A DNA stretch of 64,000 nt from Neoroseomonas marina. Its GTDB lineage: Bacteria > Pseudomonadota > Alphaproteobacteria > Acetobacterales > Acetobacteraceae. Of this stretch, positions 5,004 to 46,696 are shown in pieces. The notes under the pieces were generated by a model that saw only the letters and a list, made by a program, of their open reading frames with translations, ran no database searches and was not told the DNA's origin. The translations under genes and the position numbers were made by a program. The first letter of the stretch is position 1; every line of letters begins with the position of its first letter. The stretch lies in the NCBI RefSeq assembly GCF_012927745.1, contig NZ_JABBKX010000011.1:62001-126000 (forward strand). The letters are read 5' to 3'.

Positions 5004-5762
5004 TCAGTCCTTCATGTTCACCGCCTGGCGGCCACGCTGGCCGTCGCGCACCTCGAGCGAGACCTTCTCGCCCTGCTGCACGTCCTGCTTGCCGGCGCGC
5101 TGCAGGACGGAGGAGTGCAGGAACACGTCCTGGCCGCCATCGTCCGGCGTCACGAAGCCGAAGCCGCGGACCTGGTCGAACCACTTGACCGTGCCGTTGA
5201 TGTCGTAGGTCGGCCCACCCTCGTCGCGGCCGAAGTCGCGGCGCGGCGGACGGTCGCCGAAGGAACGCGGGCCGCGGTCGCCGAAGCCACCGCCGCCGCC
5301 ACCGAAGCCGCCGCCGCCGAAGTCGCGACGCGGCGGACGGTCGCCGAAGCCGCCGCCGCCGCCGAAGTCCCGGCGCGGGGGACGGTCGCCGAAGCCGCCG
5401 CCACCGCCGCCGAAGTCCCGGCGCGGGGGACGGTCGCCGAAGTCACGACGCGGGGGGCGATCACCGAAGCCACCGCCGCCGCCGAAATCGCGACGCGGCG
5501 GGCGAGCCCCGCCGCCTTCGCCGCGCTTCAGCTCGACGATGCGGGTGACGAGGCGCCGGCCCTGTCGGTCGGTGCCGATCTCACAGACGAGCTTGTCGCC
5601 GGTGTCGGGCGTATCGATGCCCGCCTCGGTCAGCGCCGAGGCATGAAAGAAGACATCGTTCCCATCGGGGCCGAGAACAAAGCCAAAGCCTTTCCGGCCA
5701 TTGTACCACTTAACTTCGGCCTCGATCGGGCCGGAGCCACCCTGGTTGTCGTATTCAGACAC
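5004..5762 (-). CDS. Double cold-shock-domain RNA-binding protein with Gly/Arg repeat linker
   Basis: A 252-residue protein with two cold-shock domains joined by a long low-complexity linker. Domain 1 is about residues 12-80 with RNP motifs KGFGFV (24-29) and DVFFHAS (36-42). Domain 2 is about residues 187-252 with RGFGFV (199-204) and DVFLHSS (212-218). The linker (81-183) holds six PPRRDFG motifs spaced by glycine runs. Two-domain cold-shock proteins are usual in alphaproteobacteria and bind single-stranded nucleic acids; this linker is unusually long and arginine-rich. GTG at 5762 is preferred (peptide MSEYDNQ); a GTG at 5780 is an alternative. A strong terminator follows. Confidence 0.9.
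   Translation of the reverse strand: MSEYDNQGGSGPIEAEVKWYNGRKGFGFVLGPDGNDVFFHASALTEAGIDTPDTGDKLVCEIGTDRQGRRLVTRIVELKRGEGGGARPPRRDFGGGGGFGDRPPRRDFGDRPPRRDFGGGGGGFGDRPPRRDFGGGGGFGDRPPRRDFGGGGFGGGGGGFGDRGPRSFGDRPPRRDFGRDEGGPTYDINGTVKWFDQVRGFGFVTPDDGGQDVFLHSSVLQRAGKQDVQQGEKVSLEVRDGQRGRQAVNMKD
5214..5522 (-). repeat. In-frame repeats encoding PPRRDFG plus glycine runs
   Basis: This imperfect tandem repeat lies inside the cold-shock gene. It encodes six copies of PPRRDFG, mostly followed by four to six glycines and FGDR. Unit length varies from about 9 to 29 codons. Codon use inside the repeats is uniform, which points to expansion by recombination or slippage. Confidence 0.9.
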
Positions 5763-44723: not shown

Positions 44724-45593
44724 CTACCCCGCCAGATGCCGCCGCCGCAGCAGGCGCGGCAGCAGGCCGTCGACCGGGCCGATCAACACCGACACGGCCC
44801 AGGCGCCGCCGGCGACGAGCACGATGGCTGGTCCGCTCGGCACATCCGCGTGGAAGGACAGCACGAGGCCGGCATAGGAGGAGACCAGCGCGAGGCCGAC
44901 CGCGGCATAGGCCATGCCCGAGACCTCCCGCGCCCAATGCCGAGATGCGATGGCGGGCAGCATCATCAGCCCCACCGCCATCAGCGTGCCGAGCGCCTGG
45001 AAGGCGGACAGCACGTTCACGACGACCAGCGCCTGGAAGACCATGTGCCACAACCCGCCGCGCGCGCCGGCGGCAGCGGCGAAGGCGGGGTCGAAGCATT
45101 CCAGGACCAGCGGCCGCCAGGCGAAGGCCAGAACTGCCAGCGTCACCGTCGCGACCCCCGCCATCAGCAGCAGCGCCGGGTCGTCCACGCCGAGAACGGA
45201 TCCGAACAGGATGTGCGTGATGTCCGCCCCGCCGCCCCCGCCCATCGAGATCAGCGCCACGCCAAGCCCGAGCGCGAGCAGGTAGAGCGCGGCAAGCGTC
45301 GCGTCCTCCCGCCCGCCGGTCGCGCGGGACAGCGCCCCGGCGCCGACGGCGACAAGCAGCCCCGCGACCAGCCCACCGAACCACAGCAGCGGCGCCGAGA
45401 ACCCCGCCAGCAGGAAGGCCAGCGCCACTCCGGGCAGCGCGCCGTGGGCCAGCACATCGGCCGTGAGGCTCATCCGCCGCAGCACCAGGAAGACGCCCAG
45501 CACCGGCGCCGAGACCGACAGCGCAAGGCATCCCACCAGCGCCCGCCGCAGGAAGCCGAAATCGGCGAAGGGGGCGATCAGCAGATCGTACAT
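44724..45593 (-). CDS. znuB: Zinc/manganese ABC transporter permease (ZnuB-like)
   Basis: A 289-residue inner-membrane permease of the ABC-3 family. It has about eight hydrophobic segments, an RMSLTADVLAHGALPGVALAF segment containing the conserved SLxxDxxxHxxLPG pattern, and a late GTLMAVGLMMLPAIASRHWA. It forms the pore for Zn or Mn import with the ATPase encoded upstream. It is separated from znuC by about 350 bp of repeats, unusual because these genes normally abut. No znuA receptor gene is in the window. Confidence 0.9.
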   Translation of the reverse strand: MYDLLIAPFADFGFLRRALVGCLALSVSAPVLGVFLVLRRMSLTADVLAHGALPGVALAFLLAGFSAPLLWFGGLVAGLLVAVGAGALSRATGGREDATLAALYLLALGLGVALISMGGGGGADITHILFGSVLGVDDPALLLMAGVATVTLAVLAFAWRPLVLECFDPAFAAAAGARGGLWHMVFQALVVVNVLSAFQALGTLMAVGLMMLPAIASRHWAREVSGMAYAAVGLALVSSYAGLVLSFHADVPSGPAIVLVAGGAWAVSVLIGPVDGLLPRLLRRRHLAG

Positions 45594-45620
45594 GTCAGGC
45601 GATCAGCCCCATGACCAAGG

Positions 45621-45758
45621 CGGCCCGATGCGGCGGCATCGGGCCGGGAGCGCAAAGCGCGACCGCGCCCAGACCGCCCGCTGCGCCCAGCGCAGCAGTC
45701 CACGGCGCGCAAGCCAAGCCGGCGTACGCCGGCGGCGGCGCCTGAGGCCCAAAACAAG
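45621..45758. repeat. Structured tandem repeat, unit 1 (138 bp)
   Basis: First of two adjacent 138-bp units between znuC and znuB. It opens with the hairpin CGGCCCGATGC/GCATCGGGCCG (loop GGCG), has an internal CTGCGC/GCGCAG hairpin and a tail hairpin CCGGCG/CGCCGG, and ends CTGAGGC plus an A-rich spacer. No gene is supported here. Confidence 0.9.
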
Positions 45759-45896
45759 CGGCCCGATGCCCTGCATCGGGCCGGGAGCGCAAAGCGCGAC
45801 CGCGCCCATACCGCCCGCTGCGCCCAGCGCAGCAGTCCACGGCGCGCAAGCCAAGCCCGCAGATGCGGGCGCCGGCGCTTGAGGCTCCAAATAAAC
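45759..45896. repeat. Structured tandem repeat, unit 2 (138 bp)
   Basis: Second 138-bp unit, nearly identical to unit 1 in its middle about 85 bp. The head hairpin has loop CCT. The tail hairpin is CCCGCA/TGCGGG, differing from unit 1 on both arms so that pairing is kept. Confidence 0.9.
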
Positions 45897-45945
45897 CGGC
45901 CCGGGGCGCCGCCTCGGGCCAGGGGCGCCGGCGCCTGAGGCAAGC
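45897..45945. repeat. Truncated third copy of the structured repeat
   Basis: About 49 bp. It has a head hairpin starting CGGCCCG and closing CGGGCC with altered but still pairable inner arms, joined directly to the tail GGCGCCGGCGCCTGAGGC. The middle about 90 bp of the full unit is missing. It ends at the znuC stop codon. Confidence 0.75.
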
Positions 45946-45946
45946 A

Positions 45947-46696
45947 TTACGCCGCCCGATGGCAGTGCTCGGCCTCTTCCGACCAGGCCTCGGCCATCAT
46001 GCGCGCCTTCAGGCGATTGGCGGCGGACAGCGCCTCGGCCGTCGGGCCCCAGGCGATGGCGTCGCGCGCCAGCAGCAGCGTCTCGGGGAATTCGCGGGCA
46101 ACGAGGTCGAGGTCGTGCAGCACCGCGATCACCGTCCGCCCCTGCCCGTGCCAGTCGCGCACCAGGCGCAGCAGGTCGGCCGAGGTCTTGGCGTCCACGG
46201 CGTTGAAGGGTTCGTCCAGCAGCAGGATGTCGGCGTCCTGCACCAGCAGGCGGGCGAACAGCAGCCGCTGCGTCTGCCCGGCGGAGAGCGTCCCGACCGG
46301 CCGCTTCTCGAAACCGCCGAGGCCGACCGCGGCCAAAGCATGCTCCGCACGCAGCCGATCCTCGGCAGACACGCCGCGGAAGGCGCCGATGCGCGGCCAC
46401 AAGCCCTGCATCACTACGTCGCAACAGGCGATCGGAAAGGCGCGGTCGAGCGCGGCCAACTGGGGCAGCAGCGCGATCCGGGCGGTGCCCTCGGCGGTAA
46501 TGCGCCCGCTCTCCGGCTTGTGAAGACCGGCCAGCGCCCGCAGCAGCGTCGTCTTGCCAGCCCCGTTGGGCCCGACGACGGCGGTCAGGCTGCCCGGCGC
46601 GAAGCGGCCCGAGACGTGGTGCACGGCCGGCCGCTGCCCGTGGGTCAGCGTCAGGTTCTCGAGCGTCAGGCCCGCGGGGAAGCGATGCGTGCTCAT
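45947..46696 (-). CDS. znuC: Zinc/manganese ABC transporter ATP-binding protein (ZnuC-like)
   Basis: A 249-residue ATPase. Walker A is GPNGAGKTT (42-50), the signature is LSAGQTQRLLFARLL and Walker B is ILLLDEPFNAVD, followed by the H-loop VLHDLD. The signature Gly-Gly is replaced by Ala-Gly (LSAGQ), as in some Znu/Mnt ATPases. A C-terminal His-containing tail (EEAEHCHRAA) may bind metal. The ATG at 46696 overlaps the stop of the preceding 38-codon ORF by 4 bp. It energises ZnuB. Confidence 0.91.
   Translation of the reverse strand: MSTHRFPAGLTLENLTLTHGQRPAVHHVSGRFAPGSLTAVVGPNGAGKTTLLRALAGLHKPESGRITAEGTARIALLPQLAALDRAFPIACCDVVMQGLWPRIGAFRGVSAEDRLRAEHALAAVGLGGFEKRPVGTLSAGQTQRLLFARLLVQDADILLLDEPFNAVDAKTSADLLRLVRDWHGQGRTVIAVLHDLDLVAREFPETLLLARDAIAWGPTAEALSAANRLKARMMAEAWSEEAEHCHRAA

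Follow-up and report, generated by a model that had tools for sequence, protein, structure and literature searches.

What occupies the spacer between znuC and znuB of Neoroseomonas marina, and is it there for the sake of this operon? An earlier, sequence-only reading of the 64,000-nt stretch analysed here (the window) had noticed tandem structured units at this place, and proposed either a control element of a zinc-uptake operon or a mobile REP/RAYT-like cassette. The array is probably one site of a dispersed family of structured intergenic repeats belonging to Neoroseomonas and its near relatives. We favour, with reasonable but by no means full confidence, an explanation in which non-autonomous repeats have spread, been remodelled and acquired orientation-dependent roles in expression.

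The spacer contains two full units, each at a pitch of 138 bp, and one 46-nt mini-unit, all antisense to both genes. Their features, with window coordinates, are as follows.

44724–45593, minus strand: permease (znuB / AztB-like); Pfam ABC-3; NCBIfam AztB 233.8 bits, cut-off 280
45620–45748, plus strand: unit 1, full element of 129 nt, antisense to the operon; covariance-model match G000:C3:107620-107748, 110.7 bits
45621–45646, plus strand: head hairpin of unit 1, 11-bp stem
45718–45733, plus strand: tail hairpin of unit 1, GCCGGC-GTAC-GCCGGC
45749–45757, plus strand: A-rich linker CCAAAACAA between units 1 and 2
45758–45885, plus strand: unit 2, full element of 128 nt; covariance-model match G000:C3:107758-107885, 130 bits
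45759–45783, plus strand: head hairpin of unit 2, 11-bp stem, followed on the minus (mRNA) strand by CTTGTTTTGG, terminator-like
45855–45870, plus strand: tail hairpin of unit 2, GCCCGC-AGAT-GCGGGC
45881–45884, plus strand: GAGG of unit 2, without Shine-Dalgarno use here
45886–45895, plus strand: A-rich linker TCCAAATAAA after unit 2
45896–45941, plus strand: mini-unit of 46 nt, head hairpin fused to the tail end CGCCGGCGCCTGAGGC, without the middle
45947–46696, minus strand: ATP-binding subunit (znuC / AztA-like); Pfam ABC_tran; NCBIfam AztA 217.7 bits, cut-off 220

The two adjacent 138-bp units of the earlier description are borne out, with starts at 45620 and 45758, the mini-unit beginning at 45896 and the 138 bp including the A-rich linkers. 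Units 1 and 2 align without gaps at 89% identity over 129 nt (TRF score of the array, 469), and their tail hairpins differ yet pair, as had been seen. A short third unit is also present, but it is no plain truncation: the head hairpin, with one G-T wobble, is joined directly to the last ~16 nt of the tail, a form that recurs at other sites. Zinc is the probable, not proven, substrate of this ABC transporter operon, because the best NCBIfam models, AztA and AztB, both score below their cut-offs. Elsewhere in the window, a separate tandem repeat array (periods 15, 45, 48 and 75 bp) lies at 5251–5498.

Extent of the family

Copies of the unit are dispersed through the genome. A BLAST search of the N. 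marina genome (G000) with one unit, a check that the sequence-only reading had proposed, located 38 places, among them units 1 and 2 of the window; the best 40 of 228 candidates were scored, and two of the 40 rows were self-matches of hairpins. A covariance model, R1, was built from an alignment of 26 own-genome copies, without four that were cut or odd (L012, L024, L025, L030), and matched the same genome 49 times at E ≤ 0.01 with 150 candidates scored. Copies rarely intrude on genes; the overlap with a called gene exceeds 30 nt at only 1 of 94 sites. Short, similar copies present in large numbers in spacers and seldom in genes are what defines a small dispersed intergenic repeat, and such repeats are known from several bacterial groups.

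The family is concentrated in one genus. R1 matches at E ≤ 0.001 occur in 34 of 35 genus genomes with a two-humped spread: 16 genomes hold from 9 to at least 99 matches (at least 99 in G007, a single contig), and the other 19 hold 0 to 6. Across the Acetobacteraceae, with 11 candidates scored per genome and stricter filters, matches at E ≤ 1e-6 came from 19 of 299 genomes, spread over 6 of 102 genera. A core pattern matched at least 111 stretches of named genomes, the matches listed coming from Neoroseomonas, Roseomonas, Falsiroseomonas, Rhodovarius, Acetobacteraceae MAGs, Rhodospirillales MAGs and one Peregrinibacteria MAG contig. The model did not confirm the last at 1e-7, and it may be chance or a binning error. 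In one other genus, g45, three species each carry a single copy (one match each at 1e-6); most of its head hairpin is missing, and a 6S RNA gene is close by on the other strand.

Searches of reference collections returned no known counterpart. No Rfam 15 covariance model fell on the element in the window region or in 13 loci, three of which adjoin 6S RNA. Plasmid and phage collections, from which the records closest to the window's genome may be absent, gave no blastn match at E ≤ 1e-5, and we found no description of this repeat in the open-licence literature.

Two spacers followed across the genus show how differently individual sites can behave. Of 30 znuC-znuB loci, 29 were readable: 8 contain the element, 7 a second insert, 7 a third, and 7 only 9–21 nt, the other inserts being sorted by eye. 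The element is antisense in G000, G010, G013, G006 and, as a weak copy, G009, and in sense in G007, G011 and G033, so that one spacer varies in both orientation and content among species. The second insert, palindromic and different (CCAAAGGCC...GGCCTTTGG, GGAGGGGC...), is found in seven other species; the third, in seven loci of a sister group, is a repeat whose ACTAGAGCGGTTTCCG... and TTTGGTCGCATTTTCCGAGCC... units occur one to three times. Among 30 dapA-smpB loci, R1 matches in 14, all from element-rich genomes (14 of 16) and all in sense before smpB. The other two element-rich genomes give no model match there, G006 having a 549-nt dapA-smpB gap and G034 no adjoining dapA. In 14 other genomes this spacer measures 32–33 nt; in the 14 such sister-group loci it carries a small hairpin of its own and then TTGAGAC or similar before the ATG, which loosely resembles the tail of the element. 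From the genus-wide contents of both spacers, the dapA-smpB site is old and kept, and the znuC-znuB spacer has been filled at least twice.

These distributions bear directly on the suggestion that the array controls the zinc operon. Its position between znuC and znuB speaks for that idea, but dozens of copies adjoin unrelated genes, and relatives fill the same spacer with the element in either orientation (8 of 29), with other inserts or with almost nothing. We consider a zinc-specific role very improbable, the least likely of the explanations weighed here.

Fold, covariation and probable exchange between copies

A copy comprises ~128 nt and an A-rich tail of ~10 nt. On the plus strand, its 5' part consists of the head hairpin (11 bp), a GCGC-nnn-GCGC hairpin and a GC-rich helix around a variable region; the 3' part runs through AAGxCAAG, the tail hairpin (6 bp) and zCC-GyC-G..TGA-GGw to ~10 A-rich nt. 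In 133 of 137 matches, those with full flanks, A makes up 0.57–0.72 of positions +4 to +9. The tail loop is GGAT in 146 of 221 readable copies and GGAC in 29.

Head and tail stems vary among copies and mostly remain paired. The tail stem, readable in 221 of 242 unique sequences, shows 51 arm combinations, with 179 copies fully complementary and 1245 of 1326 cells Watson-Crick; the head stem, readable in 196 of 242, shows 81 arm combinations, with 116 copies fully complementary and 2038 of 2156 cells Watson-Crick. Across the 26 own-genome copies, paired cells amount to 96.6%, compared with 87.1% after shuffling, and covariation scores 0.238, compared with 0.078; none of 500 shuffles reached either value, and sliding the partners lowered the covariation score to 0.032 or less. 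What is supported of the sequence-only reading is a structured, dispersed intergenic repeat with paired changes, REP- or ERIC-like in kind. Counts of G-T against A-C cells (head 33 vs 22, tail 14 vs 8) single out no one RNA strand clearly.

Two further helices lie at the 3' end. Among 181 of 242 copies readable here, x-y is C-G in 118, G-C in 58 and other in 5, and z-w is C-G in 102, G-C in 56, G-T in 8 and other in 15. The main x,y,z,w types (CGGC 56, GCCG 55, CGCG 42) fit pairing of x with y and of z with w. An association of x with z exists as well but breaks down in the third type, CGCG. The x-y helix (GxC/GyC) spans the tail hairpin, and the z-w helix (zCC/GGw) uses the GG of the terminal GAGG. 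Because the z-w helix crosses the x-y helix, the two would form a pseudoknot or be mutually exclusive.

Comparison with the related genome G010 shows how copies change in place. Leaving out the weakest matches (9 of 49 and 5 of 59), N. marina has 40 copies at 34 sites and G010 has 54 at 37. For 31 of the 34 own sites a G010 locus agrees on either side of the element, with flanks 87–98% identical and one site, S24, bearing only a weak copy; this comparison is tilted in favour of sharing, since it was given mostly loci that carry the element. The agreement makes an assembly artefact, which could have undone the sequence-only reading, unlikely. S32 has other DNA in G010, and S11 and S29 also fall outside the matched set. 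Seven G010 sites are without an own match; four can be viewed in G000, two as decayed remnants (judged by eye) and two as other DNA. Units in arrays are separated by 9–12 nt, save for two wider gaps, of 18 nt and, in an inverted pair, of 50 nt, and tandem growth proceeds by whole units: N. marina against G010 has 2 plus the mini-unit against 1 at znu, 1 against 2 at S09, S10 and S27, and 1 against 3 at S33.

At four shared sites the whole tail stem has been replaced between flanks that are 92–97% identical (L026/L274, L004/L259, L050/L257, L282/L270). Exchange between copies is therefore likely, and template-switch correction of palindromes can likewise yield paired changes. Head types are also characteristic of species, with CGGAT in 26 of 33 CECT 9278 copies and CGGCC in 27 of 38 own copies. 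The paired changes reported earlier are real, but the conclusion drawn from them, that they imply selection on structure, is weakened: where exchange occurs, covariation is weaker proof of selection.

Gene context and putative roles in expression

The element is placed non-randomly with respect to genes. We called genes with a simple caller trained on 29 window ORFs and retained 181 distinct sites after dropping those of mixed orientation or without a gene on both sides; these sites are not independent, because one gene may be represented by several orthologs. At 139 sites the copy runs antisense to the gene on its tail side, 89 of them with same-direction neighbours and 50 convergent; 37 are sense and 5 divergent. 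Against 290 element-free gaps of at least 60 nt (168 same-direction, 30 convergent, 92 divergent), divergent spacers are rarer with the element (5/181 vs 92/290) and convergent ones commoner (50/181 vs 30/290).

Sense copies end at a fixed distance from a start codon. The called start lies 7–13 nt past the element at 32 of 37 sense sites, 17 of them at 9, and GAGG, the Shine-Dalgarno core, can therefore serve as such in these copies. A start codon 6–11 nt past the element is found at 30 of 37 sense and 4 of 5 divergent sites, compared with 13 of 139 antisense ones (4/50 convergent, 9/89 same-direction). Shine-Dalgarno-like words precede 26 of 56 window genes where 17.2 are expected; in the 8 nt upstream of window starts the frequency of A is only 0.145, and the host therefore does not habitually use an A-rich spacer. 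Proteins encoded downstream of ten sense sites include SmpB, DnaJ, EVE, DctM, isochorismatase and ABC_tran, with no common theme.

Antisense copies lie close behind genes instead. A tail-side stop codon falls within 45 nt at 115 of the 139 antisense sites. Read in the antisense direction, the 9 nt that follow the outermost head contain at least 5 T at 23 of 139 antisense sites, at 0 of 39 sense sites and in 0 controls, and T-runs occupy 33 of 41 inner linkers.

Under the explanation we favour, copies would be retained where their signals agree with neighbouring genes. The 3' end of a sense copy (GAGG and the A-rich spacer) would act as a putative ribosome-binding site for the next gene, and the hairpins and T-rich linkers of an antisense copy after a stop codon as putative REP-like 3' ends or partial terminators. 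These roles are read from sequence, and two results count against them: T-runs appear at only a minority of antisense sites, and the terminator-like match in the window (45783–45759) is within chance, at 1 against 0.7 expected in shuffles. An effect of the window copies on operon mRNA is plausible. Because they are antisense, the GAGG of unit 2 is not used as a Shine-Dalgarno sequence, and uneven expression of znuC and znuB would be expected rather than zinc sensing.

A bolder proposal, which we regard as tentative, makes the repeat a mobile orientation-coded expression cassette: the sense copy would be a translation-initiation module with its Shine-Dalgarno sequence in a small pseudoknot or two-state switch, the antisense copy a 3'-end or attenuation module, and the family a means of tuning operon output across whole genomes of a genus, spread without a Y1 transposase or reverse transcriptase. 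Slightly less probable still is that the copies are only selfish or neutral MITE-like DNA, their stems kept by copy exchange and palindrome correction and their positions by purifying selection against harm to genes. Whole-stem replacement, species-specific head types, the mixed functions of downstream genes and the other inserts in the znu spacer of relatives all suit such DNA. The fixed 7–13 nt distance at sense sites, however, shows that a ribosome-binding function is exploited, or at any rate tolerated, for at least the 3' end, and the x-y pair spans a hairpin rather than forming a plain palindrome.

The family makes the question of whether dispersed repeats set gene expression directly testable. 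A genome can supply dozens of copies, related species differ in whether a given spacer contains one, a single operon shows the element in either orientation, and the signal is simple: a GAGG at constant spacing ahead of the start codon.

Possible mobilisation and relation to known repeats

The machinery that would have moved the copies is probably neither a Y1 transposase nor a reverse transcriptase. A RAYT master transposase had been suggested, and hairpins at both ends and an intergenic, tandem, dispersed arrangement would suit a REP- or REPIN-type element moved on single-stranded hairpins by such a Y1 enzyme. The Pfam Y1_Tnp profile, however, matches 1 of 35 genus genomes (G005, not element-rich) and none of the 16 element-rich ones, single-contig G007 with its wealth of copies included, and units of ~128 nt far exceed the 20–40 nt given for REPs in PMC3733652. 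This origin is accordingly hard to credit. We give marginally less weight to a retroposon-like element copied via RNA and entering by its A-rich 3' end. That end, the polarity of the element and the joining of tandem units at A-rich linkers speak for it; against it, RVT_1 occurs in 9 of 35 genus genomes but only 3 of the 16 element-rich ones, being absent from G000, G010 and G007, and there is no target duplication, the shared-word value for 148 single copies being 3.24 against 3.30 when shuffled. Distribution across the element-rich genomes argues against both Y1 and RVT_1 as drivers.

Non-autonomous repeats remain our preferred reading; they would have spread through machinery of another kind, perhaps a system of a family other than Y1 or RVT_1, and would have been remodelled by exchange among themselves. 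Mobility itself is something we infer, since no site of G000 or G010 showed a fresh insertion cleanly matched by an empty locus.

Known repeats share some of these traits. ERIC (IRU, RU-1) is described in PMC2229807 as a 127-bp intergenic repeat with terminal inverted repeats, TA ends and target duplication, co-transcribed with its neighbours and affecting mRNA stability in an orientation-dependent manner. Our element resembles it in approximate length and intergenic place, but on that description differs in having different hairpins at its two ends, a 3' end of GAGG and A-rich spacer, and no target duplication (no excess of shared words in the 148 single copies). CIR, the CcrM-associated intergenic repeats of alphaproteobacteria, appear in the same source as ~110 bp with two hairpin arms, a linker and conserved GANTC sites. 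Place, hairpin arms, host and length are alike, but GANTC lies inside 3 of 238 copies and within 25 nt after the element in 25, which sets the element apart from CIR. GANTC is enriched about four-fold after the element relative to a control stretch without being a conserved part, and 16 of 238 copies end their A-rich tail with AAGACTC, which contains it.

REP/BIME and REPIN with RAYT are likewise intergenic, hairpin-forming and often downstream of genes, but no Y1 transposase accompanies our element in the 16 element-rich genomes, and its ~128-nt unit is several times longer than the 20–40 bp palindrome stated in PMC3733652. TAACTGA direct repeats of Beggiatoaceae, as described in PMC4679880, are dispersed and directly precede the start codons of genes with unrelated functions; they are heptamer repeats, whereas ours is a folded 128-nt element ending in GAGG. 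We read the array as one site of a new non-autonomous repeat family, intergenic and of the ERIC and CIR kind yet outside the definition of either, with putative orientation-dependent expression signals. The family is ordinary in kind; what is unusual is a GAGG end placed as a ribosome-binding site, with two covarying helices there.
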